A stretch of DNA of 64,000 nt, taken from positions 1 through 64,000 of the IMG/VR virus record IMGVR_UViG_3300029448_004877; one strand, 5' to 3'. Both the position numbers and the translations under genes were made by a program. The number at the start of each line of letters is the position of its first letter. Within the stretch, counting starts at the first letter, position 1. This document shows, piece by piece, positions 12,779 to 59,442 of the stretch. The notes under the pieces are model-generated. The model saw only the letters and a program-made list of their open reading frames with translations. It had not been told where the DNA came from and searched no databases. This DNA is from a virus.

Positions 12779-13657
12779 CTAAATGGCCATCTCTGCTTTG
12801 ATGGCACTTAATGGGTTATAGTTATCAAGCTGAAAGTCAGAGACGCCCAAGCTTAATACTTCCTCTAGAGAAGAAAACTCTTTATTAATTTTCAGTGTTG
12901 GTAACTCTTGCGGGGTTCGCTTTAGTTGTTCTTTCACTGCATCATAGTGTGTATTATATATATGTGCATCACCAACCGTAAGTACAAAATCCTGTACGCT
13001 TAAGTCGGTTATTTTGGCTATAATATGAGTCAATAAAGAATAGCTTGCAATGTTAAAAGGTACTCCTAAGAACAAGTCTGCGCTTCTTTGATACATCTGA
13101 CAACTCAACTTTCCATTAATAACATAAAACTGTGCCAATGTATGACAAGGCGGTAAAGCCATCTTGTCGATCTGATTAGGATTCCATGCACTTAGAATCA
13201 ATCTACGACTGTCTGGGTTTGTCTTTATCTCATCGATAAGCCACTCAATTTGATCGGTGCCCTTGAGATGGGTAGAACTATTGTACATTTCTCCATTGAA
13301 GTTTCTCCACTGAAAGCCATATACTGGACCTAATATTCCATGAGAATAACCAAGTGCTTTGCCTTGATTCTCAGCATTGTCTGTCCATATAGTTCTTTTA
13401 TCTTCTAACTCTGATCGATCTTTATCATAGGTAATTTCTGCTAACCTTCTTTCATCCATAGAGCCTTCAAGAAACCATAGCAGTTCGCCGACAACAGATT
13501 TCCAGGCTAGTCTTTTAGTTGTAACAGCTGGAAAGCCTTTTGTCAAGTCAAATCGCATCTGATAACCAAAAATACTTCTGGTACCTACTCCAGTACGATC
13601 ACTCTTTTCTTCGCCCGACTCCAAAACGTCGGCTAACGCATTTAGATATGTTTTCAT
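12779..13657 (-). CDS. td: Thymidylate synthase (ThyA type)
   Basis: 292 residues. Converts dUMP to dTMP with methylene-tetrahydrofolate. Catalytic C171 sits in L-P-P-C-H. N202 in P-F-N-I-A-S-Y is the residue that selects dUMP; the related dCMP hydroxymethylases carry Asp there, so this enzyme is a true thymidylate synthase. No intron is seen, unlike T4 td. It overlaps DHFR by four bases, consistent with shared folate cycling. Confidence 0.96.
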   Translation of the reverse strand: MKTYLNALADVLESGEEKSDRTGVGTRSIFGYQMRFDLTKGFPAVTTKRLAWKSVVGELLWFLEGSMDERRLAEITYDKDRSELEDKRTIWTDNAENQGKALGYSHGILGPVYGFQWRNFNGEMYNSSTHLKGTDQIEWLIDEIKTNPDSRRLILSAWNPNQIDKMALPPCHTLAQFYVINGKLSCQMYQRSADLFLGVPFNIASYSLLTHIIAKITDLSVQDFVLTVGDAHIYNTHYDAVKEQLKRTPQELPTLKINKEFSSLEEVLSLGVSDFQLDNYNPLSAIKAEMAI

Positions 13658-20823: not shown

Positions 20824-21678
20824 TCATCCAAACATCTTTTTCAGAGTAGCTGGTCCAGCAACTCCGTCTGCTACTAATCCGTTTGACGCTTGCCACGCAC
20901 GTAATGCACGTTTTGTTCCTGGTCCAAATATGCCGTCTGCCCCGATATTAAGTGCCTTTTGTAATGCAACAACAGTATCTCCTCTATCTCCAGTTGTCAC
21001 TGTTACGTACTCAACTTTAGATTTCTTAGGAGTAGGAATCTTTCCACCCATAATTTCAATAGCGGCTTTATAACGTTTTGTTCTGTCCGCAAGTCCAATA
21101 TCACCACCATTAATCTTTTTAGTCATCTTAACAATGTCGCCTTTGTCTGCGATTGCGTTCAGTTTAAATGTCTTCCAGAACCAACAAGCACTTTCGATAG
21201 CACCTCTTTCTGTTGCCACATATTCTGCCGCTTCTTCTGCTGTCATTCCAACAGTCTTACCAAATTTAGTATAGTTTTCACGACCAGTAAGTTGCTTCAG
21301 GCCACGACCCCTAAAGAGCCATCCATCTCCTTCTTTGACATTGCCCATCTTATATTTACGAAACTCGTCCATATATACGTAGTTAGCAATCATCTCTGGA
21401 TTACGTGCATACTCTTTTGCGCTACGCTTCGGTGACTTACCAAAGTACCGTCCAAATACTCTAATCAATGCGCTTTCACTGTAATTCAAGTTCTCTTCAA
21501 GTGACTTGAAGTTATTACTTTCGTGGGCACATTGTGCAATAAATCCAGCCATTCTTTCAGGCGTGTTGATGTCGTACTTAGGAAAGATTTCTACAATCGC
21601 ATCGTACCACATATCGACTTTTGTGTTGCCAGGAATCATTGCGCCTAGCATCTCTTTTGTTAGTTGAAATTTACTCAT
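20824..21678 (-). CDS. Endolysin: GH19 lysozyme/chitinase plus peptidoglycan-binding domain
   Basis: 284 residues from the ATG at 21678, which overlaps the preceding stop (ATGA). The first about 210 residues are a GH19-type catalytic domain. A-H-E53-S carries the likely general acid, with a second acidic residue near 61, and F-R-G-R-G-L-K-Q-L-T-G-R-E-N-Y is the family's substrate-cleft motif. The last about 60 residues form a PG_binding_1 domain (V-V-A-L-Q-K-A-L then D-G-I-F-G-P-G-T). No signal peptide, so release through a holin or other route is needed; no holin was identified. Confidence 0.9.
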   Translation of the reverse strand: MSKFQLTKEMLGAMIPGNTKVDMWYDAIVEIFPKYDINTPERMAGFIAQCAHESNNFKSLEENLNYSESALIRVFGRYFGKSPKRSAKEYARNPEMIANYVYMDEFRKYKMGNVKEGDGWLFRGRGLKQLTGRENYTKFGKTVGMTAEEAAEYVATERGAIESACWFWKTFKLNAIADKGDIVKMTKKINGGDIGLADRTKRYKAAIEIMGGKIPTPKKSKVEYVTVTTGDRGDTVVALQKALNIGADGIFGPGTKRALRAWQASNGLVADGVAGPATLKKMFG

Positions 21679-22451
21679 TTTCCTTGCCTCTTTAACATTG
21701 TTACCTTTTTCTTCCAAGCTGGTTTGTCCATTTCTTTCTCTACATCTTGAACAGCATCCATAAATAAATGGAGCATTTTCATCTCATACTCTATACTTCC
21801 CCAATTCTCTCTTTTTGCCTGTTTGACCATCTTTTCTAAATATTCTACGACTTTTTCTTTTACTTGGTCATGTCTTAGTCTACCATAACCACGCAAAAGT
21901 ACTTCTGGATTGGTTGCATCATCAGAAGATTGTGGTTTGGTATCGTATATTTGTCCAGTAACAGCCTCTGTTAATTGTTTAAAACTTTTCATTTTTTTGA
22001 TCTCCCAAACATTTTCATTCCCTTCGTGTATCTTTTTTGTGAAAGTTTTTGGGTAAGTGTACACGTGTTTTAATAATTCTCTAACTTTCACATCCGCTTT
22101 CATGATGTCAATATCTAATCCAACGTTTTTAGCGGCTAACCATCTATGATGTCCATCTATGATATAGTTATCTTTACTCACAATTAGAGGTTTTGCTTGA
22201 CCAAGAGTTTTGATCTTAGCGATTGCGCCTACAACCTTATCTTTGTTAAACTCTTTCTGAATAGGCTTCAAACTCTTTGCAGGCACTTTTATTTTTTTAA
22301 TGCCCACATTATTTTTCTTCAAATGCTTAATCAGTCCATCGTAATCCTGCGATCTAACTTGCGGCATTTTATCTCTTGTAAATCCAAGAGTGTCGACCGA
22401 CTTAGGCTCATATACCTTAAACTCTGCGACAAAAGTTTTAAACTTCTTCAT
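21675..22451 (-). CDS. Two-module protein: capsid-targeting N-terminus, ParB-like domain, second targeting module
   Basis: 258 residues. Residues 1-12 (MKKFKTFVAEFK) resemble the T4 internal-protein targeting peptide. Residues about 64-112 form a ParB/sulfiredoxin-like domain with I-I-D-G-H-H-R-W-L-A (97-106). At residue 154 an internal ATG (21992) is preceded by GGGAG and starts MKSFKQLTEAVTG, another targeting peptide with an L-T-E/A cleavage site. The C-terminal 105 residues are helical. So a shorter second product from 21992 is likely, or this is a fusion of two cargo genes. Confidence 0.75.
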   Translation of the reverse strand: MKKFKTFVAEFKVYEPKSVDTLGFTRDKMPQVRSQDYDGLIKHLKKNNVGIKKIKVPAKSLKPIQKEFNKDKVVGAIAKIKTLGQAKPLIVSKDNYIIDGHHRWLAAKNVGLDIDIMKADVKVRELLKHVYTYPKTFTKKIHEGNENVWEIKKMKSFKQLTEAVTGQIYDTKPQSSDDATNPEVLLRGYGRLRHDQVKEKVVEYLEKMVKQAKRENWGSIEYEMKMLHLFMDAVQDVEKEMDKPAWKKKVTMLKRQGK

Positions 22452-25450
22452 ACCTTAATCACTTTGCTTGATGTACCGAAGTTCTTCTTACGCATGATAG
22501 TCTTGTTAACTACTTCGTACTCATCTTTTTCGCTGTCGTAGTTAATGACAATAGGCAAGTTCAAGTCTGCCTGAATGTCCTTAAGTACTGCTTCGATGTC
22601 AGGATTTTGACGAATATTCTTTGCTTTATTCTTCGCAATCTTTTTAAACACTCTCTGAAGTTCAGCAATTGTGATAGCAGGCTTGTTACGATCATCGTTC
22701 ATGCGATCAGCAAAGTGCTTAGTGAACTCTACATCGATGCCAAACTTGTCAAGCAATCTATCTGCAAATCTCTCAAGATCATTCAACTGCTTTTGTGTAA
22801 CTTCTTCGCTGAATTGCGCTTCGAATAGATCGTTTACTGACTCACTTACAGTTTCACCAGGAGTATCTTTCTTATAACGCTTAGTAACTTTTTCAGTGCC
22901 TCTGTCTCCTGCACCTCCAACTTCAATAACATACTTTTCGCCTAACATATTGTGTAGTACTTTATGGTCTACGTTATTGTAACTCTTGGCAATCTGTTGA
23001 GCATAGTAACCAGAGCCATGCCTCATGCCTCTACCGCCAGCTTCTTTCTTCTTACGAGTAATCAAATCTTTTAATGTTTTCAGTGCGTGTTGATATGCCT
23101 TTTTATTAACTGTAACAGACTTAACTTTGTTTACTACATATCCTTCTGATGCTTCTTTACTCTCTACGAACTCTTCGAACATATTATCGATGTCAACTTC
23201 TTCGTTTTTAGGCACACAGTTAGGGACTAGCCTACCGTTCTTCTTTTTCATGCCTCTTTGCTCATGAGAGTCCCAACAAGGATCATCATCTTTTTCTTTC
23301 AAAGATTTACCCTCGCTGTCGTATCCAGGCTTTCCAGCTTTTGCTTTCTTAGATATAGCGATTGCGGCACGTTGTGCGGCTGAACCTGCGCCTTCAGTCA
23401 TTCCCAAAATTCCACGAGTGAATTCATTCAGTTGACCACCAGCATCTACGAATGCGGCTATAGCCATTTGCTGTTTTTTCTTATCTGACTTACCTGCAAA
23501 CTGAGGAGCATCTGACTTCTTAAAGTCATCGATCCAAGCACCGAGTCCGTCAGATACTTTTAACTTCTCTTCTAATTCAACTTCTTCTTTTTTAGCACTG
23601 CCACGCACTTTAGCGGCTAAATCTGCGTCTGCCTTACCCCATGTGCCGGACGACTTAGTAATGAAAGAGTTAACACGTGCAAAGCCCCATTGTTGTGGAG
23701 TAGTTCCTGGTCTGTGACCAGTTCTCCAAGCGGCAATACCTCTATTATAGACTTGACGTAAAATGCCTAGTGGCATTCCAGACTTCTCTGCTTTCTTCTT
23801 GAGGCCCTCATTACCCTTTGCTTCATCAAGAGTTACTTGCTCGTAGATGTCGTTTGTAGTTTCTTCGATGAAATCGATAAGTGCTTTGTCTGTATCAAAC
23901 TCTTCTTTGTTGATACTTGTAATCTTCTTGCGTAATTCTCTGGTAAGTAGAGCGTCCATTTCACGCTCATGCTCTTTAGACAAATTCTGTCTTTCGTCTT
24001 TGTGTTGGCGCTTCAATCTTTTTTCGGCATCAGTGTTGATAGAGATTTCGTTTAATGCCTCTTCTTTGCGGACACGAAATGCACGAAAGCGGCGATCTAA
24101 TTTAATTTGACCTTCTTTATTAAACATTTGATGATAACGCTTAGTGTGCTTTGATGGCTTGGTCTCTGCTTCTGCATCACCCGGCGCTGGCTTGTACGCA
24201 TCTGGATTATCGTCATCCATTTTAGCGCCCTTTTTAAAGTGTGCATCACGCTTTGTTTTTGTAGACTTGGCTAGACCTTTATGATATACAGCTGGCTGTG
24301 TGCCTTTTCTATCCTTAATATCTGGATCTTGACCCACAGTAGGCTCTTCAAAAAGAGTAGAAAACTCATCATTAACTAAGAACGATTCAAACTCTTCGTT
24401 CACACTCTTTTTACCAGATAGTTTTGCTAAATCTGCTTTTCTAACTTTAGGCAATAACTTCTTTGCTATTCGGTCGATTGCGCCCTTCTTAGTAGAAACA
24501 CGTTTGTCGATAAGCATTTTTTCAGAAGGAGATAAGTTGTTATAGTTTTCGCCTTTCTTGCCTGCGACTTTCTTGCGAATAATTTTGATGGCAGCTTTTC
24601 TAGCACGTAACTTTAACTTATCCATAGTAGCGGCTTTTTTAGCCATACGTCTACGACCTTGAGCAATCTTTGACTTATACTTACGCATTGTGATTGATCT
24701 TTGGCGCCTTTGTTGCATCGTCAATGCTTCTTCAAGCTGTTCCATCATTTCGGCAATCTTCATGCCGCCACGTACCATGTCATACACATCTTGAGCATCA
24801 TTTTGAAGTCTTCGAGGCAAACCAGTTTTGAATTTTTTGAAGTCACCTTGAGAGGCTGCGGCTCTCATTTTAGAAGCAGACATGCCTTCTACTCCCTCTG
24901 AATCTGGGTCACGATCACCAGCAGATACAATAGAGATTTTATCAAAGTTATAGTCTTTACCGTTGTACTTGTTTAACAGATCATCGAACTGTTTAATTCT
25001 ATCCTGACCAACAACAAGAATTACCTTAGAGAATTTCTTCTGCAACTCTTGCATGATTTGGATGATAGTGCGGGCATTGGATTTTACGATGATATTACCG
25101 AATGCTTTCTTTGCAAGCATAATTTTATCATCGTAATCTAGAGGATTTTTCTTAGCGTCTTGACTGTGAGAAACGTAGATCAGCGGTGTTGCCGCTTCTG
25201 ATCTTGCAACAGATTTGATTTTGTTGACTAGCTTTTCGTGTCCAACAGTAATTGGATTCATTCTGCCCCAACCCAAAACTACTGTCTTATTTGGAGCTTC
25301 TTCAAGTTTGGGGTTGACCTCAATAGCGTTTTTCACTAAGAGTTCATCCTTTACTTTCTTCGAAGTCTTCTTTGACTTCTCTGTCTTCTTTTTAGAAGTC
25401 GTTTCTTCACCAGAGTTTGCCTCTGGATTTTCCATAGAATCGTCTTGCAT
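22448..25450 (-). CDS. 1000-residue late polyprotein with N-terminal nucleotidylyltransferase domain
   Basis: Residues about 55-225 are a cytidylyltransferase-fold domain: V-L-G-W-G-R-M-N-P then T-V-G-H (68-71), and M-S-A-S-K-M-R near 190-196. Next come a very basic stretch (about 245-345), a DUF5824-like region (M-P-L-G-I-L-R-Q-V-Y-N-R-G near 559-571, then P-Q-Q-W-G-F-A-R-V-N), a D-P-C-W...P-N-C-V-P-K motif near 723-748, and acidic linkers. Possible gp21 sites follow E51, E241, E543, E686 and E877. Preceded by a perfect late promoter. Most likely a head-interior polyprotein cut during maturation. Confidence 0.82.
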   Translation of the reverse strand: MQDDSMENPEANSGEETTSKKKTEKSKKTSKKVKDELLVKNAIEVNPKLEEAPNKTVVLGWGRMNPITVGHEKLVNKIKSVARSEAATPLIYVSHSQDAKKNPLDYDDKIMLAKKAFGNIIVKSNARTIIQIMQELQKKFSKVILVVGQDRIKQFDDLLNKYNGKDYNFDKISIVSAGDRDPDSEGVEGMSASKMRAAASQGDFKKFKTGLPRRLQNDAQDVYDMVRGGMKIAEMMEQLEEALTMQQRRQRSITMRKYKSKIAQGRRRMAKKAATMDKLKLRARKAAIKIIRKKVAGKKGENYNNLSPSEKMLIDKRVSTKKGAIDRIAKKLLPKVRKADLAKLSGKKSVNEEFESFLVNDEFSTLFEEPTVGQDPDIKDRKGTQPAVYHKGLAKSTKTKRDAHFKKGAKMDDDNPDAYKPAPGDAEAETKPSKHTKRYHQMFNKEGQIKLDRRFRAFRVRKEEALNEISINTDAEKRLKRQHKDERQNLSKEHEREMDALLTRELRKKITSINKEEFDTDKALIDFIEETTNDIYEQVTLDEAKGNEGLKKKAEKSGMPLGILRQVYNRGIAAWRTGHRPGTTPQQWGFARVNSFITKSSGTWGKADADLAAKVRGSAKKEEVELEEKLKVSDGLGAWIDDFKKSDAPQFAGKSDKKKQQMAIAAFVDAGGQLNEFTRGILGMTEGAGSAAQRAAIAISKKAKAGKPGYDSEGKSLKEKDDDPCWDSHEQRGMKKKNGRLVPNCVPKNEEVDIDNMFEEFVESKEASEGYVVNKVKSVTVNKKAYQHALKTLKDLITRKKKEAGGRGMRHGSGYYAQQIAKSYNNVDHKVLHNMLGEKYVIEVGGAGDRGTEKVTKRYKKDTPGETVSESVNDLFEAQFSEEVTQKQLNDLERFADRLLDKFGIDVEFTKHFADRMNDDRNKPAITIAELQRVFKKIAKNKAKNIRQNPDIEAVLKDIQADLNLPIVINYDSEKDEYEVVNKTIMRKKNFGTSSKVIKV

Positions 25451-25506: not shown

Positions 25507-25514
25507 TATTTATA
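25507..25514 (-). promoter_or_regulatory. T4-type late promoter for the polyprotein operon
   Basis: Perfect TATAAATA on the minus strand, 57 bases before the polyprotein start and immediately after the preceding gene's stop. It probably drives the polyprotein, ParB-like, endolysin and downstream genes. Confidence 0.82.
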
Positions 25515-26764: not shown

Positions 26765-27994
26765 TTACTTCTGCCAGCCTTTAATAAATTCGTCTGAGAA
26801 GTTTGCTTTTGAGAAGCCTAGTCTATCTACTAGCTTGACAGCATTCTTACCCATTCTATCGATTGCGACAAAGCCTTCTTGCTCTGTAACTTTATAACCA
26901 TCTCTTGTTTTTAAGAAAGTGCCTATAGACTTTGCTTTATCTAGCTTACTGATGATACGTAATTTTATTTCAACGATCATGTTATACAGTTCAAATAATG
27001 CGACAATCTGAGACTTGTCGATGTTTGAAAAATATGCCATCACTTCTTTTCGTCTTTCTGTTCTACCGGCTTTGCCCTTTTCAGATTTCAGCTTATCAAT
27101 TTCTTTTTGGTAGTACTCGTAAATCCAGTCTACCATATCAGTGACGAATTTAGACGGATCTGCAATCTTTTCACCTGCCCGTACTTTTACGTTCAGATAT
27201 GTTTTGACTCTTGTGAGTAGTTCTTCGTTTTCTGTTATACCATCAAATGTTGCTTTGTTTACTTTGTTGAATTGTTTACCGGCGGCTGACAATAACAGAG
27301 TAACTGCATCTGTTTCTGTTTGCGTCATTGTAGCATTACCAGTTACATCTTTATATACAGCATCTACTGACCAGACCGATCTTGAGTCTTTGAGATTGCT
27401 TGCAATCTTCTCTCCAAAAGACGCTGACATTGATTCAAAAGATTTTCCTCTGTAGTTAGTGTGCCAAACCACACCGATCTCGGATCTGAGGATTTTAGAA
27501 GCAAGCGGGCTTTTCGCTGGTATAGCGTAAACAATCGTATTAGGATGAAAAGTAATATACGATTCACCATCAATCTGTGCCTTCTTAATATCTTTCTTCG
27601 CATAGAGAAAATCACCTTGTATCACTCCTTTAATATTCATAGATGGCAAATGTTTCAATGCCAAATTCATTTTTATATTCAAATCACCTTTAGTATCAGC
27701 ATCAACGTCCGCCTTAGTCTTGTAGACCTTTGGGTTCTTGTTGAAGATACCTTTCTTCGCAACGAAAAACTTACCGTCTGAGGGATCAATGCCTGCAAAT
27801 ACTGCTGGTGCACCGTCCCACTTGACAGTTACATTGACTGCTGACTTAGATTTACCAGCTAACATGTCACGTAAAGAACGTAAATAGTTGATTGATTCTC
27901 TTGCACCGTCAACGCCTGCATTCAGGATATTGTCTTCTAGGTGTTCCATGTGTGTGTTTTTGTCTTCAGTCAAAAATGATGAAAGGCGTTGCAT
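26765..27994 (-). CDS. DUF6267-like protein with ligase/nucleotidyltransferase-like motifs, likely head cargo
   Basis: 409 residues from the ATG at 27994 (GGAG six bases upstream). N-terminus MQRLSSFLTEDK resembles a capsid-targeting peptide with a T-E cleavage point. K58-W-D60-G61 matches the K-x-D-G nucleotide-attachment motif of ATP-dependent ligases. G-V-I-Q-G-D-F-L-Y could be motif III, E373-G-F-V-A motif IV and K387-L-V motif V. The distance between motifs I and IV (about 315) is larger than in known ligases and includes a helical insertion. So the fold assignment is an inference; the gene itself is certain. I recall this family as DUF6267 in marine phages. Confidence 0.75.
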   Translation of the reverse strand: MQRLSSFLTEDKNTHMEHLEDNILNAGVDGARESINYLRSLRDMLAGKSKSAVNVTVKWDGAPAVFAGIDPSDGKFFVAKKGIFNKNPKVYKTKADVDADTKGDLNIKMNLALKHLPSMNIKGVIQGDFLYAKKDIKKAQIDGESYITFHPNTIVYAIPAKSPLASKILRSEIGVVWHTNYRGKSFESMSASFGEKIASNLKDSRSVWSVDAVYKDVTGNATMTQTETDAVTLLLSAAGKQFNKVNKATFDGITENEELLTRVKTYLNVKVRAGEKIADPSKFVTDMVDWIYEYYQKEIDKLKSEKGKAGRTERRKEVMAYFSNIDKSQIVALFELYNMIVEIKLRIISKLDKAKSIGTFLKTRDGYKVTEQEGFVAIDRMGKNAVKLVDRLGFSKANFSDEFIKGWQK

Positions 27995-27995
27995 C

Positions 27996-28799
27996 TTATG
28001 CTCCAAATAATTTCTTTACATCTTCAGGATTATCAAGGCTGTACTTAGACTTAACGTCAGTCTTCAATCTACCTTGACAACGATATCCAGCACCGACAAC
28101 ACGATAGTCTTCGCCATTAATTTTTCTTGCTTTACTTCCAGATGGTCCTAATCTAAATTCGATATTAACAGATCCTTTATATTCTGGAACATCTAGCTTT
28201 AATGGATTACTTCCCAGATAAAAGAGACCTGCTTTACCTATCTGAATGTAATACACATTCTTTCGGTTATATGCTTTGGCAATTGTTCTTGCCGAGTCGA
28301 AAGATTGAATTGCGTTCATCTTACCAAGATAGCCAGCTTTCTGTGCCGCTGACCACGCTTCTTTAGTGACTGAACCGAAAGGAATTGTGTATGGTGTTTT
28401 TTTGTGGAATGCTACTGGCTCTTGCTTACGAATAAAGTTGACCCATTCTTTAAGTGCTTTATCTTGCTTTTTTGCCGCTTCTATAAAAAATGGAATGGCG
28501 TCATCGTCTACCGCATCCGGTTTGACTAAAGTGTGGGTCTTATTTAATGTGTCTATTCGTATAGACGTACCGCCCATTTGAGCATTCTTGTCTAGTTTGA
28601 TTTCGATATTGAATTCTTTACCGTTGTATAATGCTTCAATATCCCCTGCGCCTTGATTGCTGTATCCTGCACCTGGTTTACTGCCGACATCTAATCCTTG
28701 CACACCAGCAGATTTCATTGCATCGAAAACTTTCTTTTCGTATGCTAGTCCTTTTGCACCGACTGATTCGGTAATGAAACTTTTAAATCTGACTGTCAT
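27996..28799 (-). CDS. PD-(D/E)XK nuclease-like protein, likely head cargo
   Basis: 267 residues. N-terminus M-T-V-R-F-K-S-F-I-T-E-S resembles the T4 internal-protein targeting peptide, with cleavage after Glu11. Then Y-E21-K-K-V-F-D-A-M, G-D53-I-E and E66-I-K68 appear in the order and spacing of the PD-(D/E)XK core (acidic helix, D, E-x-K), with supporting G-A-G and K-N-A-Q-M-G-G. A C-terminal beta-rich part follows. If packaged, it could cut host DNA on entry or help initial genome processing. It is adjacent to the ligase-like gene and overlaps the next gene by four bases. Confidence 0.75.
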   Translation of the reverse strand: MTVRFKSFITESVGAKGLAYEKKVFDAMKSAGVQGLDVGSKPGAGYSNQGAGDIEALYNGKEFNIEIKLDKNAQMGGTSIRIDTLNKTHTLVKPDAVDDDAIPFFIEAAKKQDKALKEWVNFIRKQEPVAFHKKTPYTIPFGSVTKEAWSAAQKAGYLGKMNAIQSFDSARTIAKAYNRKNVYYIQIGKAGLFYLGSNPLKLDVPEYKGSVNIEFRLGPSGSKARKINGEDYRVVGAGYRCQGRLKTDVKSKYSLDNPEDVKKLFGA

Positions 28800-29851
28800 T
28801 TTTTAACCTTAAATTTCGTATCGTTTGGATATTCACCAGCTTTAGAATTTCTTAACTCAATTACATAATCTTCAACAGTGTTACTGCATAATATCGTAAT
28901 CTGCTTAGATTTTGAAGATGGATATCTTATATCATCAATTTTTATATTTTGAGATAACTTATCCAACTTTGTCTTACCTAACCAGAAGACCTTCCACCCA
29001 GTTCGCATTCGCCTTACATAAAAGTAGTTCATACCCCATGCCCTATTGAAAATCTTTTCGATTTCTCTTGCGTTGGCTCTCGGTACTGCGAGTTTCGGTC
29101 TAACTTTATTTATATTACCTCGTTCATCAAAGCCAGCTTGCACCTTGTTTAGATCAACTCCGAACGTTTTTAAGAAGGTTGCACCGGCTGAATTGGGCTG
29201 TAAGTTGCCTTCTCTATCAAACAAAGAAGCGGCACCTGAGTATGAACTGAAAGTATTACCGTTGATATCTTTAAGTGATATGTACCATTCACCACCTTGA
29301 TTATCTGTTAAGATAATATCTCCGATAATAGCACCTAATTTATCAATTGGCACTCCCTCTTTCTTTGTGCTACCAGTACGTTGAACTGCACCGACAATCT
29401 CTGCGTTAGCGAAGGGAGCATATGACTCGCTCATCATATTTACAACTTCAGAAGTTTCATTGTCTGTGCGAGTTTTGAAATACGTATCAAGCGTTTTGAC
29501 TGTTCTTACCTCAAACTTCTCGCCAGCATTCGCACCTCTTGCGATGATGATATCGAACTTAAGACCGCTAAATGTAAAACTGTAACTAGGAAACTTAGAA
29601 CTATTTGGAGAAATAGAGTTGAAGGTCACGCTTTCTAAACTAGTGTCCTTACGCAACTGCATTTTGAGATGATCTATTACAGCTTGGCTTGTATCGTCAT
29701 TTTTGTTGATAAGTTGTAGCCTAAACTCACGAACAGACTTATCGTTTGTTCCTGGCTTACCTTTTGGATACAAAGGAGCGACCCGATAATTCTTTATCTT
29801 TACGATAGAGTTCAGGTTTTCTCCGATCTTCTCATATACTTCCATACTCAT
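28796..29851 (-). CDS. Late protein of unknown function with possible nuclease-like motif, 351 residues
   Basis: No family recognised with certainty. Around 177-205 the pattern G-D-I-I-L-T-D then E-W-Y-I-S-L-K-D and S-S-Y-S-G resembles the D...x-L-K core of some restriction-type nucleases. The rest is mixed alpha/beta. It has no targeting-like N-terminus (starts MSMEVYEKIGENLNSIV). It overlaps the PD-(D/E)XK-like gene and has a probable late promoter, so the two are likely co-expressed. Confidence 0.7.
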   Translation of the reverse strand: MSMEVYEKIGENLNSIVKIKNYRVAPLYPKGKPGTNDKSVREFRLQLINKNDDTSQAVIDHLKMQLRKDTSLESVTFNSISPNSSKFPSYSFTFSGLKFDIIIARGANAGEKFEVRTVKTLDTYFKTRTDNETSEVVNMMSESYAPFANAEIVGAVQRTGSTKKEGVPIDKLGAIIGDIILTDNQGGEWYISLKDINGNTFSSYSGAASLFDREGNLQPNSAGATFLKTFGVDLNKVQAGFDERGNINKVRPKLAVPRANAREIEKIFNRAWGMNYFYVRRMRTGWKVFWLGKTKLDKLSQNIKIDDIRYPSSKSKQITILCSNTVEDYVIELRNSKAGEYPNDTKFKVKK

Positions 29852-30440: not shown

Positions 30441-30600
30441 ATGGGTGCGTGTGAATGTGTAACAACACAAGAGGCAAGTGTGATCGTTTTTAATAGACTC
30501 ACAGAAGGAATAACTGGGGTAGCATTTCGAATGCAGGTGGGGTTCCTCCCAGTCACGCAAACTATTTAGAGAAGGCAACTTTTTGGTTGCCTTTTCTTTT
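30441..30600 (+). ncRNA. Candidate late small RNA
   Basis: A free-standing transcription unit of about 160 bases between a perfect late promoter and an intrinsic terminator, on the strand opposite to all nearby genes. The RNA can form hairpin TGTGT/ACACA (30456-30469). It also has a three-way junction closed by ACTGGG/CCCAGT (30513-30518 with 30548-30553) around GCATT-TCG-AATGC (30522-30534). The only open frame (42 codons from 30441) has no ribosome site and starts at the predicted 5' end, so a non-coding RNA is favoured. Its 3' end is antisense to the end of iscU. Confidence 0.6.
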
Positions 30601-30988
30601 GGGCAGATTCCTTACGAACTTTCATTTGATAATCTTTTACGGCAGTCTTTATGGCATCCTCTGCAAGGACTGAACAGTGTATCTTTACTGGTGGGAGAGC
30701 AAGTTCTTCGGCTAGTTGTGTATTCTTAATTTGACTCGCATCATCTAGGTTCATGCCTTTGACCCACTCAGTCAGAAGACTAGAAGACGCAATAGCACTA
30801 CCACATCCGTAAGTCTTAAACTTAGCATCAGTGATGATATTATCTTCCACCTTAATCTGAAGTCGCATGACATCTCCACATGCAGGTGCTCCAACCATAC
30901 CAGTGCCTACATTAGGATCGTTCTCGTCCATCTTGCCGACATTTCTGGGATTCTCATAATGATCTAACACTTGCTTACTGTATGCCAT
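30566..30988 (-). CDS. iscU: IscU-type Fe-S scaffold protein (copy 1)
   Basis: 140 residues. All scaffold ligands are present: C37-x-D39 in A-P-A-C-G-D-V, C62 in Y-G-C-G-S-A-I-A-S and H104-C105 in K-I-H-C-S-V-L-A-E. The IscS/HscA contact area around L-P-P-V-K is conserved. The scaffold assembles Fe-S clusters on host IscS-derived sulfur. It lies 12 bases downstream of an A-type carrier, forming a small Fe-S module. Its last 10 codons are encoded by the plus-strand terminator hairpin. It differs clearly from the second IscU at 40 kb. Confidence 0.92.
   Translation of the reverse strand: MAYSKQVLDHYENPRNVGKMDENDPNVGTGMVGAPACGDVMRLQIKVEDNIITDAKFKTYGCGSAIASSSLLTEWVKGMNLDDASQIKNTQLAEELALPPVKIHCSVLAEDAIKTAVKDYQMKVRKESAQKKRQPKSCLL
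30571..30600 (+). terminator. Plus-strand intrinsic terminator
   Basis: Hairpin AAGGCAAC/GTTGCCTT with a 6-base loop followed by TTCTTTT on the plus strand. On the minus strand no U-run follows, so it points rightward. Confidence 0.78.
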
Positions 30989-31000
30989 AAGGCACCTCTA

Positions 31001-31321
31001 TTAAACGTAGAAAGACTCTCCACAGCCGCATTCGCCTGTAACGTTAGGGTTGAGAAATTTAAACCCAGAGTTCAGACCCTCTTTTACCCAGACCAACTCT
31101 GATCCAGCTAAATATGTTTTACTCTTTTCATCTATTATTAACGTTACACCTTGATCATGTATAACGGTATCATGTCGATCCATGTTGTATGAATATTCTA
31201 GTACGTAAGCCAACCCGCTACAACCAACTGTACGAATTCCAATTCGAATGCCTTCACAGTCAGGTTTGGCTGCCAGTCGATCTCGCAATGGTTCGTATGC
31301 AGATTCGTCTATGGTTATCAT
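31001..31321 (-). CDS. A-type Fe-S carrier (IscA/ErpA-like)
   Basis: 106 residues from the ATG at 31321. The three cluster-binding cysteines are C34 (T-V-G-C-S-G) and C98/C100 (G-E-C-G-C-G-E), as in IscA/ErpA/HesB proteins. N-P-N-V-T precedes the last pair as usual. It receives Fe-S clusters from IscU and delivers them to target proteins. Next to iscU, it suggests the phage supports maturation of Fe-S enzymes during infection. Confidence 0.93.
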   Translation of the reverse strand: MITIDESAYEPLRDRLAAKPDCEGIRIGIRTVGCSGLAYVLEYSYNMDRHDTVIHDQGVTLIIDEKSKTYLAGSELVWVKEGLNSGFKFLNPNVTGECGCGESFYV

Positions 31322-31322
31322 G

Positions 31323-31502
31323 CTACTTATTATATTCCTTAACAAAAAAGTTTGGCGTATATCCATCAAACCCGCTACCAGCATTAAGCGCATTTACCAT
31401 GCGGTGTGCCTCTTCTTCATTACTAGTTATGTATAGATTTAGTCCAGTGGAGTTTTCTAAGACATGAAATTCTTTATCAACCTTCTTCAAAAGGTAAAGC
31501 AT
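31323..31502 (-). CDS. Small protein, 59 residues
   Basis: Starts MLYLLKKVDKEFHVLENSTG, then has I-T-S-N-E-E-E-A-H-R-M-V-N-A-L and ends F-F-V-K-E-Y-N-K. The start overlaps the preceding stop (TAATG). Compact alpha/beta pattern, function unknown. Confidence 0.68.
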   Translation of the reverse strand: MLYLLKKVDKEFHVLENSTGLNLYITSNEEEAHRMVNALNAGSGFDGYTPNFFVKEYNK

Positions 31503-37268: not shown

Positions 37269-38378
37269 TTAGTCGCTTCTTTCACCGAAACCATAGTCGA
37301 TGACTACTGGGAATCTTGGCACACCATCAGGCGTAAGGCCAAAGTATCTAAGAGTAGCCCAGTCAGGAGTGGCACCTTTTTCCCAAAGGTCTTTTAACAC
37401 TTCTTGTTTACCTCTAACTCCAGCACCACAAGTCTCGCCGCTTGGCAAAAGAAGAGCAAAGTGTTTCACGTGACCCGCCCAATTGCCTTGACCTTCAAGC
37501 ATTGTCACCACTTTGAATTCTTCAGTAATAAACTCTTTTCTTTTCAGAAGATCATTACTTCTCTTGTTTTGCTGATAAAGTGCATTGTTTCTTACCATCT
37601 GACCTTCATATCCATCTTCTGTATATGAGGCATAGAGTTCATCTAACTGCTCTTGATCACTAGCAAAGTCAGTCTTAACGATCTTAACAACATCACTCTT
37701 TGCTTTGTACGCAAGTTTAATTCTGTCGATGAAAAGCATATTCTCAACGTTACAGTCGTAAACGTGATACTGCACCAGAGATGCTGACTCTGCAATGTCC
37801 TCTGGAGTTGACTTAAGTTTTCTCACAAGACTAGTAATCTTATTGAAGTCTTCTTTCAACTCATGGTTATATAGTTCACCGTCTAAAGTGACACCAGGAT
37901 TAGCATCGAGAAAAGGCTTAACTGATTCCCAGATATGTGGGCAACTAGTAATTTCTTTGCCTGCTCTAGTCCAGAGTCCTGATTGATTTGCGATACATCT
38001 AATGCCGTCTAGTTTTGGTTGAGACCAACCCTGCGCTTGTGGACGCTTAGTGTAGTCGCCCGCAAGCATAGGCTTAAACTTCTCGTATGTATCAATTAGG
38101 TTGATGTCTGCAAAGTACTCTTTCTCAACTTTTTTATCCCAACTTGCTTGGGCTTCTGCGAATGCTTGAGTAACGCAAGTAGTTGCGTTGACTTTGCCGA
38201 CGTTCTTTGGTTCGGTAATATTCCAGCCAGAGGTAACTAGCTTACCATCTTGAATGCCTGCTATCGACCTAGTGCCAGCAGTATCCTCATTATCAAATCC
38301 ATATTCAATGGTTAGTACTCTAACCTTGCCCTTTGTGTCTCTCTTATACAACGTGGGCAGTGCAATCACATTTTCCAT
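37269..38378 (-). CDS. ATP-dependent DNA ligase
   Basis: 369 residues. K122-L-D-G is the adenylation motif I, followed by L-D-G-E-L-Y (motif III) and E-G-Q-M-V-R (motif IV). An N-terminal extension of about 100 residues (starting MENVIALPTLYKR) precedes the catalytic core. It seals Okazaki fragments and recombination nicks. Smaller than T4 gp30, so I leave the symbol empty. It has its own promoter at 38.4 kb. Confidence 0.92.
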   Translation of the reverse strand: MENVIALPTLYKRDTKGKVRVLTIEYGFDNEDTAGTRSIAGIQDGKLVTSGWNITEPKNVGKVNATTCVTQAFAEAQASWDKKVEKEYFADINLIDTYEKFKPMLAGDYTKRPQAQGWSQPKLDGIRCIANQSGLWTRAGKEITSCPHIWESVKPFLDANPGVTLDGELYNHELKEDFNKITSLVRKLKSTPEDIAESASLVQYHVYDCNVENMLFIDRIKLAYKAKSDVVKIVKTDFASDQEQLDELYASYTEDGYEGQMVRNNALYQQNKRSNDLLKRKEFITEEFKVVTMLEGQGNWAGHVKHFALLLPSGETCGAGVRGKQEVLKDLWEKGATPDWATLRYFGLTPDGVPRFPVVIDYGFGERSD

Positions 38379-39731: not shown

Positions 39732-40175
39732 TTAATATCCATACCCATTTGGGTCTTCCCATTTTTGGTTATGTTTTCTGTGTGCAGTTTTTTCTTCCCA
39801 GTTTTCTACTGCTTTCTTGATTCCTTCTTCTGCAAGGACAGAACAGTGTAGTTTGATAGGCGGTAATTCAAGAGCTTCTGCAATTTCTTTATCTTTAATT
39901 TGTTTTGCTTGTTCAATCGTTTTACCTTTAAGCATTTCAACAAACATTGTCGATGACGCAATTGCACTTCCACATCCATAGGTTTTGAATTTGACATCTT
40001 CTATCAAATCTCCATTCATCTTAAGGTCGAGTTTCATGACATCACCACATGCTGGAGCTCCAACTAGTCCAGTTGCAACATTAGGGTCTTTAGGGTCAAA
40101 CCTACCGACTGCATGTTTTTCTGGATTGTTTAGAACAGATTCGAATCTATCTACTACTTTTTTACTATATGCCAT
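39732..40175 (-). CDS. iscU: IscU-type Fe-S scaffold protein (copy 2)
   Basis: 147 residues with the complete ligand set: C43-x-D45, C68 and H110-C111. It differs from copy 1 by an N-terminal insertion (V-L-N-N-P-E-K-H-A-V-G) and a long C-terminal tail (H-R-K-H-N-Q-K-W). So the two are paralogues of different origin rather than a recent duplication. It sits between dUTPase and hsp20; chaperone and Fe-S scaffold side by side recalls host isc logic. Confidence 0.92.
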   Translation of the reverse strand: MAYSKKVVDRFESVLNNPEKHAVGRFDPKDPNVATGLVGAPACGDVMKLDLKMNGDLIEDVKFKTYGCGSAIASSTMFVEMLKGKTIEQAKQIKDKEIAEALELPPIKLHCSVLAEEGIKKAVENWEEKTAHRKHNQKWEDPNGYGY

Positions 40176-46499: not shown

Positions 46500-48038
46500 T
46501 TATGCGTTTTTCCAATCAAAATCTTTAACTAGTTCCATGCCGTAGTTGTTGGTGCCAGTAGGCATATCAAATCCGTCTTTGAATCTAAGCTTGTTCACTT
46601 TGAATGGTCCATAGTCCACAAAGTGATGCCATCTGCCATATCTCCAGACAAGTCTTGCCACGTCTGGGTGCATGTCAACTAACATTTGTGACTTATTCAC
46701 AGTACCTTCAGTATTGTATCCAGTTTCTTTGAACTCTTCATTTTCGGTATTCTCTGCGTGATAAAATTCAGCAGTATTACCACCACTTACAGTTTGAGTA
46801 GCGGCTTTACCTTGCATAAACGCATTAAACTGAAGACACACATCACCATCCTTCATCACTCGTAGACAGATATCAGTATCTTCGTTATATCTACCACGCC
46901 ACCTATGCTTACAATCATTCCGAATAAGTAAAGTAGAATATATACGTGTGTTGGCAACGTAAGCAGGATATTTTTGATTCGGGTCAATAAAGAACCGATA
47001 TTGTGGACCAGCAATGTAAACATTATCATACCTTTCTACAAAATCTTCCATCACTTGAAAGCCTACACCACTCTCAAATCGAATGCGCTCATTATTATGA
47101 AGTCTGTAGAAATCCGAGATATTGTCATCCAATACCCAATGACTAGTAGCGCCAATACTGATCGAATGATCCCATGCCCAGTTTCTAGCACGACCAGGAC
47201 CATCACCGTGATTTGAGAATGGAGCAACTAGTAGTGTTACGTAATCTCGAATGTTAAAAGTATCAAGTGCCTTATCGTAACTGTCGAGGTCTTGAGGCTC
47301 AATCACAATGTAATGTGGTATTTGCATACGAGACAGCGATCTGGAAGTAAACATTGAATCAGCACGACCCTTAGATACAATGTACATAGGGTGTTCTGGC
47401 AAAGTTCTGCCTTCTGGCTGAATCCAGCGCAACAGCAAGTTCTTAGTAATATGCTGTTCTGGATGCCAAATGCTCTTGGTCTTTTCTGTCACCTCTTGAC
47501 CAATCTTTTGAGAAAACTCTTTATAGTCCGCTTCACTTCTGAAGTTTAATGTGATTGCTCTGAATTTAATCTTGTCTTCTTGAGCATATTCTGGCATACC
47601 AATCCAGTGCTTTTTCCAGTTCGATTCATATTCTGACTCAACTGTCTTTACTTTACTAAAACCAGGTCCATTATATTCAGGAACAAGTAGATTAGGATCG
47701 ACTGTGATAAGATCCTCTTCTATATCTTTGAATAAAGACATCGCACGATTTTCTAGAGGATAATATGTCTCTTTGACATATCCAGGTATCATCTGATTGA
47801 TCTTTGTGCAGAAGTCTACCATATCATCCTGAGTTCTGAAGTGAACATAGATAGATTTCCAGATATCGCTCTGTACAACCTTCTTTACTCTGGTGGCATC
47901 TACTAGCTTATCTTGCATAGGCTCGTCAAAGAATTTATCTAGACTTACGCTATAAGTGTCATTTTTACGTGCCTCATCATTCATGTAATTATCGTACTCG
48001 GCACTCTCTTCGATAATTGGTTTACTATTATTTGTCAT
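46500..48038 (-). CDS. TET-associated-type glycosyltransferase with duplicated N-terminal domain
   Basis: 512 residues. The C-terminal about 300 residues start M-Y-I-V-S-K-G-R-A-D and contain Y-I-V-I-E-P, G-P-G-R-A-R-N-W-A-W and W-V-L-D-D-N-I. Y-N-E-D-T-D-I-C also occurs. This is the glycosyltransferase type found with phage DNA-modification genes. The N-terminal part holds two copies of an about 80-residue module (each with an F-R-T/S-x-x-D/A-D core and a T-x-x-x-P end). It overlaps the GT-B gene by four bases. DNA or cell-surface acceptor is not determined. Confidence 0.78.
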   Translation of the reverse strand: MTNNSKPIIEESAEYDNYMNDEARKNDTYSVSLDKFFDEPMQDKLVDATRVKKVVQSDIWKSIYVHFRTQDDMVDFCTKINQMIPGYVKETYYPLENRAMSLFKDIEEDLITVDPNLLVPEYNGPGFSKVKTVESEYESNWKKHWIGMPEYAQEDKIKFRAITLNFRSEADYKEFSQKIGQEVTEKTKSIWHPEQHITKNLLLRWIQPEGRTLPEHPMYIVSKGRADSMFTSRSLSRMQIPHYIVIEPQDLDSYDKALDTFNIRDYVTLLVAPFSNHGDGPGRARNWAWDHSISIGATSHWVLDDNISDFYRLHNNERIRFESGVGFQVMEDFVERYDNVYIAGPQYRFFIDPNQKYPAYVANTRIYSTLLIRNDCKHRWRGRYNEDTDICLRVMKDGDVCLQFNAFMQGKAATQTVSGGNTAEFYHAENTENEEFKETGYNTEGTVNKSQMLVDMHPDVARLVWRYGRWHHFVDYGPFKVNKLRFKDGFDMPTGTNNYGMELVKDFDWKNA

Positions 48039-57292: not shown

Positions 57293-57300
57293 TATTTATA
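57293..57300 (-). promoter_or_regulatory. T4-type late promoter of gp23
   Basis: Perfect TATAAATA on the minus strand, 35 bases before gp23. Confidence 0.85.
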
Positions 57301-58286: not shown

Positions 58287-58982
58287 TCATGTTTTTGACA
58301 ATGAACTTACAAATTTTTCGAAAAGAGCGGCAGCTTTGATCTCAAGTTCTCTTGTAGATACTCTTGCTGTCTCTTTAATCTCCTCTTCAATTTGATCAAA
58401 TGCATTTGCCATTGTCCACGAAGAAGATGCTACATCGTAAACCCAGTCTACGCCTTCCATTACACCCTTTACGAATGCGTCTGGCGCTGATGGGTCTGCA
58501 ACGATATCTCCGGCAGTAGCTAACATAAAGTCGCTCTGCACTTCCATAACGCCATCTTTATTCTGCTTAATTGAACCCATCCCACGTGAAGAAATCCCAA
58601 CAAGACCGCCTTCATCGATAAGATTTTTAACAATCTTACCCATAGGTGTTTCCATTATCTTGGCTCTACCGACAATGTTAGAACCTTCTTTTCTTAAATC
58701 TGTGAACATGTGAGACACACGATCAAGATTGATAGTAGGACCAGCAGGATGACCCAGTTCTCCGTATGCTCTATTTTTAGAAACATAAGATTCGTTATAA
58801 CGCTTAGTCTCAGCTTCTAAAATAGATGCTGGATATAAACGTCCATTTCTGTTTTTGATATCACCCTGCATGATGATACCTTCGATGAAATAGTTCTTTC
58901 CTGTTTTTTCGCCTTCTTCGTTTAGAATATCTTCTTGTAGATATTTTACGTCTTCAACGATTTCTTTAATTAGTAATGTCAT
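58287..58982 (-). CDS. 21: Prohead protease (gp21)
   Basis: 231 residues. H78 in G-E-L-G-H-P and S131 in V-G-I-S-S-R-G are the catalytic residues of this herpes-protease-like fold. G-R-L-Y-P is the conserved start of the family. It cleaves head proteins after L/I-x-E during maturation, a specificity matching sites seen in gp22, gp23, gp68 and the 17.6-25.5 kb proteins. Confidence 0.93.
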   Translation of the reverse strand: MTLLIKEIVEDVKYLQEDILNEEGEKTGKNYFIEGIIMQGDIKNRNGRLYPASILEAETKRYNESYVSKNRAYGELGHPAGPTINLDRVSHMFTDLRKEGSNIVGRAKIMETPMGKIVKNLIDEGGLVGISSRGMGSIKQNKDGVMEVQSDFMLATAGDIVADPSAPDAFVKGVMEGVDWVYDVASSSWTMANAFDQIEEEIKETARVSTRELEIKAAALFEKFVSSLSKT

Positions 58983-58983
58983 G

Positions 58984-59442
58984 TTACTTGCCTGCCGTCA
59001 TTGCAAATTGAACGATCTGCATAAACTTTCTACTATCGTCTAGCATGCCTTCAACTTTCTTTTTGTTAGATCCATTCAATTGCTTATGCATCGAAAGAAT
59101 CATAGATGCTGTGGTCAAGTCAACCTTTTGCTTCTTGCCGTCTTTAAACTTGACGTGTCCGATTGATTTGGTCTTAACAATTTTAGCCAAATCTTCAAGA
59201 ACACCCTCAACAATGATCTCTTCTTCAGCTTCAATCTCTTCATAGACTTCTTTATCTTGACCTTCTTCACGATCCGCTTCACGCTTCTTTTTCTTCTTGC
59301 CTTTAATTTCGCCTGAAAATTGGTCATCAGGTGCGACAGGATGATCACGTTTGTCAACGATATGTTTGTCTAAAAAATTCTGCTCATCAGGAGACTTAGG
59401 TTTATCTACAGTCTCAGCAAGCATTTCCTTAAAGCTTTTCAT
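58984..59442 (-). CDS. 68: Prohead core protein (gp68-like)
   Basis: 152 residues. Starts M-K-S-F-K-E-M-L-A-E/T, a capsid-targeting peptide like those of T4 internal proteins, and has a second gp21 site I-V-E79/G. A Lys-rich middle (K-G-K-K-K-K-K-R) is followed by an acidic part and a helical end. Position next to gp21 is as in T4. Confidence 0.82.
   Translation of the reverse strand: MKSFKEMLAETVDKPKSPDEQNFLDKHIVDKRDHPVAPDDQFSGEIKGKKKKKREADREEGQDKEVYEEIEAEEEIIVEGVLEDLAKIVKTKSIGHVKFKDGKKQKVDLTTASMILSMHKQLNGSNKKKVEGMLDDSRKFMQIVQFAMTAGK

Follow-up and report, generated by a model that had tools for sequence, protein, structure and literature searches.

Three adjacent genes of a marine T4-like myovirus were found to encode a protein with a predicted ligase fold, a candidate nuclease and a protein with a predicted nuclease fold, and two of the three products start with the capsid-targeting signature of T4 internal head proteins. 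The genes are located on a 64,000-nucleotide stretch of viral DNA (positions 1 to 64,000 of IMG/VR record IMGVR_UViG_3300029448_004877; hereafter the window), a fragment of a viral record of 71,861 bases. They form a cassette on the minus strand, to which all cassette coordinates below refer, and follow the helicase region in the order C (28796-29851), B (27996-28799) and A (26765-27994); C and B share 4 bases (ATGA), and a single base separates the stop of B from the start of A. With about even confidence we regard the cassette as an example of a module of T4-like phages that pairs a nuclease with a ligase-fold enzyme and that is packaged as head cargo in this clade. The original prediction, made from the letters of the window, had called A ligase-like and B and C nuclease-like, and had suggested that the products might be ejected into the host. 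All residues that it named are present in the three open reading frames and are conserved beyond chance in 72 A, 15 B and 34 C sequences.

A is a member of DUF6267 with a predicted ligase fold

Gene A codes for 409 residues if translation starts at the ATG at 27994, which is used for residue numbering here; the listed TTG start at 28006 adds 4 residues. The protein is a full-length member of DUF6267 (PF19782; E 1.4e-112, 377 bits against a cut-off of 27, profile positions 1-373 of 376), a phage family also listed as T4-GC 71 and phrog_455 that has no assigned function and was mentioned in no paper found by our literature search. Relatives were retrieved by tblastn from 465 phage records, mostly of cyanophages (T4-GC 71); outside the cyanophages the family occurs in Pelagibacter phage HTVC008M, in the Methylophilales phages Melnitz and in Stenotrophomonas phage DLP_6.

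Alignment of 72 DUF6267 sequences revealed K58, D60, G61, K81, G127, D128, H178, T179, Y181, E373, G374, V376 and K387 as invariant. Candidate ligase-type motifs follow one another in the order motif I (K58-W-D-G61, 27812..27823), a motif III-like D128 in QGDFLY (27611..27613; D for E, on strand 124-132 of the model), F149 as a possible motif IIIa, and motifs IV and V (E373-G374 and K387, 26834..26878). The AlphaFold2 model has a mean predicted local distance difference test score (pLDDT) of 90.5, with values below 50 only in the disordered residues 1-13. When it was compared with known structures by VIA-align, RNA ligases took ranks 1-12 with Z-scores of 7.8-8.9, above most unrelated rows, among them Naegleria RNA ligase (Z 8.9, 184 residues) and Trl1 (Z 7.8), followed by T4 Rnl2 (Z 7.6), archaeal and trypanosome RNA ligases and then DNA ligases. 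A shares with T4 Rnl2, Naegleria RNA ligase and Trl1 the predicted fold, a KxxG motif I, an acidic motif III, the EG of motif IV and the motif V lysine, and its 14-residue spacing from the motif IV glutamate to the motif V lysine equals that of the Naegleria enzyme (E312-K326, numbers taken from the titles of mutant entries).

A differs from these enzymes in an insert of about 160 residues, in the aspartate that replaces the motif III glutamate, in missing lysines and in having no profile-level similarity to them. The insert (residues ~195-355, 26930..27412) lies between motifs IIIa and IV, is mostly helical with six helices at 225-354 of the model, and accounts for the unusual motif spacing that had made the ligase assignment look doubtful. 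A natural short version exists in phage S-CREM2, whose DUF6267 has a shorter insert and keeps KIDG, QGD and EGFV...IKLVD. Predicted A ends 22 residues past K387 in one helix, and a C-terminal OB domain carrying motif VI is not evident. Several Rnl2 catalytic residues are also missing, and a standard ATP-dependent DNA ligase (phrog_114) is encoded at 37269-38378 of the window. The reading of A as a DNA ligase in the strict sense is therefore unsupported, and A as the replicative DNA ligase of this phage is disfavoured by the phrog_114 enzyme. Judged from the model and the motifs, A is probably a ligase-fold covalent nucleotidyltransferase and not a DNA ligase.

C and B resemble PD-(D/E)XK nucleases

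Searches of Pfam, NCBIfam and PHROGs assigned no function to B or C, B being without any Pfam match, and PDB sequence profiles gave nothing significant for A, B or C. C (351 residues) was modelled by AlphaFold2 with a pLDDT of 89.5, and its joint top structural match is the restriction endonuclease HinP1I (2fkc; Z 10.1, root mean square deviation 4.3, 189 residues aligned), in line with the nuclease-like character proposed for it; the models of A and C accordingly resemble ligases and PD-(D/E)XK enzymes. The putative active-site hairpin, D178...S192-L-K194 (29270..29320), is formed by strands 179-183 and 188-194, and no variation was seen at G177-D178-I179, S192-L193-K194, E111 or E114 among 34 C sequences. 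C shares the predicted core and the D...xK hairpin with HinP1I-type PD-(D/E)XK restriction endonucleases and differs from them in a serine in place of D/E/Q before xK and in a fused polymerase-beta-like domain. E111 and E114, located in the preceding helix, could substitute for the missing D/E. In a viral structure library the nearest neighbours of C are unnamed phage proteins, one of them from cyanophage S-CAM1.

The N-terminal domain of C (residues 1-108, 29528..29851) has a nucleotidyltransferase fold. Residues ~1-108 matched TUT4/7 in Foldseek with an E-value of 2e-4, and the other Foldseek and VIA-align matches are terminal uridylyltransferases, polymerases mu and lambda, and terminal deoxynucleotidyltransferase. 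The catalytic DxD is not evident: by register R44-L-Q46 occupies its expected positions, which makes polymerase activity of this domain improbable, and D100 is invariant. In C this polymerase-beta-like domain is fused to the nuclease domain.

B (267 residues) matches phrog_26930 (E 5e-11) and carries the hairpin D53-I-E55...E66-I-K68 (28596..28643). E66 and K68 are invariant in 15 relatives, and D53 is unaligned in the most distant rows. In hhalign the B profile matched that of family 14 of the proteins encoded upstream of DUF6267 (see below) with an E-value of 8e-6, GDIEA...IEIK being placed on PDLV...FEIK with the active-site residues aligned. The D...ExK residues of B are thus conserved, D53 in all but the most distant rows, and by its motifs and the profile match B is a candidate PD-(D/E)XK-like nuclease. 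A sister relationship of B and C was not found, the two being without a match to each other in hhalign; B links to family 14 and C to family 2.

A and B carry T4-type capsid-targeting signatures

T4 internal proteins IPII and IPIII begin with MKTYQEFIAEA, and in this capsid-targeting sequence residues 4 and 7 govern targeting and residues 8 and 10 processing (PMC9026906). We defined the tag signature by a hydrophobic residue at position 4, F/Y at 7, I/L at 8 and E at 10. A starts with MQRLSSFLTE (residues 1-10, 27965..27994), in the same register as MKTYQEFIAE, and a scan of N-terminal signatures found MTVRFKSFITE in B (28767..28799), shifted by one relative to IPIII; positions 4, 7, 8 and 10 are common to the tags of A, B and IPII/IPIII. 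What had been described as a targeting-like N-terminus of B is hence the IPII/IPIII signature, and A carries one as well. At the start of C, MSMEVYEKIGENLNS, a capsid tag was not found, and a loose pattern was passed by 3 of 32 C sequences, so that packaging, originally suggested for the whole cassette, is supported for A and B and not for C.

The tag is widespread: among the DUF6267 sequences of viral contigs that are complete and non-redundant, 59 of 60 carry it just before KNTHMEH. Cyanophage DUF6267 is untagged and begins directly at MAKNTHLEHLED or similar. The window also codes for a gp21-type prohead protease (58287..58982, minus strand; phrog_207, E 4e-75), which would cleave the targeting sequence. 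Between gp21 and gp20 a small protein starting with the similar signature MKSFKEMLAE (58984..59442, minus strand) occupies the head-core position that gp67/gp68 have in the T4 gene order 20-67-68-21.

Because of their T4-type capsid-targeting sequence A and B should enter the prohead core. Like T4 IPI, IPII, IPIII and Alt they have an N-terminal 10-residue tag with the same spacing in a genome with a gp21-type protease; in contrast to the T4 internal head proteins the cargo would consist of two enzyme-like proteins, a ligase fold and a nuclease, encoded near the replication genes. We know of no natural T4 internal protein that is a nuclease or a ligase. T4 heads nevertheless accept tag-fused nucleases, namely EcoRI and staphylococcal nuclease (PMC9026906), T4 IPI* blocks a host restriction enzyme (PMC3012670), and in T-even phages the cargo set is diverse with the tag alone conserved (PMC3012670, PMC9026906), a situation similar to the one described here.

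Published virion proteomes support packaging of A and B indirectly. The proteome of S-SZBM1 (PMC9146016) contains a cytidylyltransferase that is encoded in the neighbourhood of DUF6267 and starts with a tag (MRFRQFIIEA), but neither the untagged DUF6267 protein (SSZBM1_141) nor the product of the gene upstream of it (142); likewise, a tagged cytidylyltransferase (MKNFSSFLTEA) was detected in S-CREM2 virions and DUF6267 is absent from the proteome table (PMC10665884). The tag tracks packaging in these two phages, with the caveat that some detected proteins have no tag and that detection limits apply. Virion cargo as a general property of DUF6267 is unsupported, as untagged cyanophage versions went undetected in both proteomes.

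A further tagged protein is encoded at 21675-22451 (minus strand), a ParB-like protein (weak ParB_N match, phrog ParB-like nucleases) that starts with MKKFKTFVAE and is probably head cargo.

The gene upstream of DUF6267 is exchanged frequently

We collected the gene just upstream of DUF6267, hereafter the slot, from 155 loci and further loci by automatic assignment. Clustering of the 155 unique slot proteins with a length of 140 residues or more gave 32 families, and the slot family changes at least 66 times on a FastTree phylogeny of DUF6267 with 134 tips. The tag signature is present in 66 of 140 slot proteins compared with 94 of 979 background proteins (p ~1e-24, the sequences not being independent).

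At least 13 slot families have a D...(E/S)xK pair that all their members keep. Links detected by hhalign connect families 0-2-3-10-24, families 7-16-21 and families 1-12-14, and reading of the alignments showed the pair in register for 0-2, 1-14, 7-21 and 16-21. Families 4, 15 and 29 look like structural proteins that stem from rearranged neighbourhoods, and were not counted as nucleases.

The coupling of a slot gene to DUF6267 recurs in cultured phages: family 5 in HTVC008M, Melnitz and DSL-LC02, family 2 in DLP_6, family 1 in S-8S53, family 3 in P-HM1, P-HM2, S-MbCM7 and S-H9-1, and family 13 in C48C1. In S-CRM01 and P-RSM6 the slot is occupied by no more than a small gene, and in S-PM2 by one of 58 residues. 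In the S-PM2 record NC_006820 DUF6267 itself is split over two frames; it matches in one piece in record LN828717, so that a sequencing error in NC_006820 is possible.

Genome context of the cassette

Homologues of gp18, gp20, gp21, gp22 and gp23 are encoded on the minus strand at 56-64 kb of the window, and a family B DNA polymerase, UvsX and a gp41-type helicase at 32-37 kb, also on the minus strand. Inside C, about 300 nucleotides upstream of B and A, we found a possible T4-type late promoter, TATAAATA (29107..29114, minus strand), which possibly serves B and A. The motif occurs 17 times in the window compared with 4.5 expected, a count reached by 0 of 100 shuffles, and sites such as those at 57293, 58275 and 63766 stand before the head genes gp23, gp22 and gp18.

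Another such site, at 25507, is located directly upstream of the gene at 22448-25450 (minus strand), which lies downstream of A. Its 1000-residue product has an N-terminal cytidylyltransferase/NMNAT-like domain, a DUF5824 and several possible gp21-type sites, and shorter relatives were detected in virions of several cyanophages.

Reading of the sequence further identified two IscU-like proteins and one IscA-like protein (30566-30988, 31001-31393 and 39732-40175), i.e. iron-sulfur cluster scaffold-like proteins, whose genes are unusual phage cargo or metabolic genes. The genes at 46500-48038 and 12779-13657 comprise a match to beta-glucosyl-HMC-alpha-glucosyltransferase and a thymidylate synthase-family gene, from which it follows that the phage DNA may be modified and may thereby be protected from the phage's own nucleases.

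Discussion

The families, the motifs, the two predicted folds, the tag signature and the turnover of the slot are computational observations, and from them we infer how catalysis, packaging, ejection and targets may be connected. A would be a divergent covalent nucleotidyltransferase, with K58 as the predicted site of AMP attachment. The slot before it, which most often holds a protein with a PD-(D/E/S)xK-type hairpin, would here be filled by B, with the putative nuclease C preceding. The T4-type tag would bring A and B into the prohead core, where the gp21-type protease would trim them, and both would leave the head together with the genome. Within minutes of the onset of infection the nuclease would attack DNA lacking the phage's own protection, be it of the host, of a plasmid or of a rival phage, or alternatively disable a nucleic-acid-based defence. 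The ligase-fold enzyme would meanwhile repair breaks of the entering genome, or else RNAs that host nucleases have cut. C, being untagged, would act in the producing cell.

Several observations weigh against this packaged nuclease and ligase-fold module. For A, Foldseek against the PDB gave no significant match (best E 0.23), so that the relation to ligases surfaced solely through the structural aligner, and an hhalign comparison of A with an alignment of the T4 Rnl2 family produced no signal, whether the insert was kept or removed. PF09414 (RNA ligase 2 family) has no match in the phage's own viral record, and membership of A in the Rnl2 family is not claimed, as the profile comparison was silent. 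Compared with the residues that never vary among the aligned T4 Rnl2 homologues, A has neither the motif IV lysine nor the second motif V lysine, and D replaces E in motif III. The window phage also has its own DNA ligase. As to the nucleases, a serine takes the place of the PD-(D/E)XK D/E in C (S192) and in most slot families. The D...(E/S)xK hairpin pattern, defined after inspection of the data, is present in 16 of 23 families compared with 392 of 979 background proteins (p 0.008), a moderate enrichment. Several slot families are not nucleases, including an HAD phosphatase-like and a zeta-toxin-like kinase family and, by reading, HD-domain and ParB-like families; since the zeta-toxin-like kinase or HAD phosphatase in the slot can be tagged (L071, L031 and relatives), the slot is not nuclease-only. 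Finally, we found no virion proteomics for the clade of the window phage.

The best-surviving alternative, which we nonetheless find rather doubtful, is that DUF6267 is an unrecognised replication or repair ligase of marine T4-like phages with a replication or recombination nuclease as its slot neighbour, packaging being secondary or absent. It would agree with the position of DUF6267 directly after gp43-uvsX-gp41-mazG in many isolates. Homologues of the T4 gene 30 ligase were moreover not found in cyanomyoviruses, where distant homologues may have gone undetected (PMC2984593), and PF01068 detected no DNA ligase in S-PM2, S-CREM2, S-SZBM1, HTVC008M and Melnitz, all of which have DUF6267. phrog_114 matches with many internal stops in isolates were treated as chance, PF01068 not confirming them. 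However, the window phage, DLP_6 and 6 of the 12 large uncultivated viral genomes combine DUF6267 with a standard ligase, a replication enzyme would need neither a capsid-targeting sequence nor a hypervariable nuclease partner, and in T4 the host ligase can substitute (PMC2984593). As the PF01068 ligase is absent in some DUF6267 phages and present in others, DUF6267 could be the missing ligase of some of them but is not simply a replacement for it.

T4 RNA ligase 1 repairs RNA against PrrC, and A could likewise be a delivered RNA-repair enzyme that re-seals tRNAs or further RNAs after their cleavage by anticodon nucleases of the host, the slot gene being independent anti-defence cargo. The closest folds of A are RNA ligases and not DNA ligases, and the many non-nuclease slot genes (HAD, zeta-toxin-like kinase, HD domain) fit a general cargo site, but beside A no 3'-end-healing kinase/phosphatase was identified and proteins with D...(E/S)xK prevail in the slot, which makes this explanation unlikely. 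Least probable is that A transfers nucleotides covalently to some other target, as in AMPylation or capping of a protein or nucleic acid, or that it descends from ligases and binds DNA without catalysis: the missing motif IV and V lysines, the D for E in motif III and the lack of an evident C-terminal OB or Rnl2-type domain would suit it, but none of K58, K81, D128, E373 and K387 varies among the 72 sequences, as would not be expected of a dead enzyme.

Returning to the nuclease and ligase-fold module, we tentatively suggest that marine T4-like phages combine the conserved ligase-fold DUF6267 with rapidly swapped PD-(D/E/S)xK nucleases. Possibly both are tagged in phages of heterotrophs and ejected as a cut-and-seal weapon, and the untagged form replaces the missing DNA ligase of cyanophages. 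DUF6267 had no assigned function, and the predicted ligase fold makes it directly testable; it also bears on why cyanomyoviruses seem to be without a DNA ligase (PMC2984593). The variable slot contains many uncharacterised nuclease-like families together with a short signature that predicts which of them travel in the virion, and proteins used by phages as weapons or for counter-defence are likely to be found among them.

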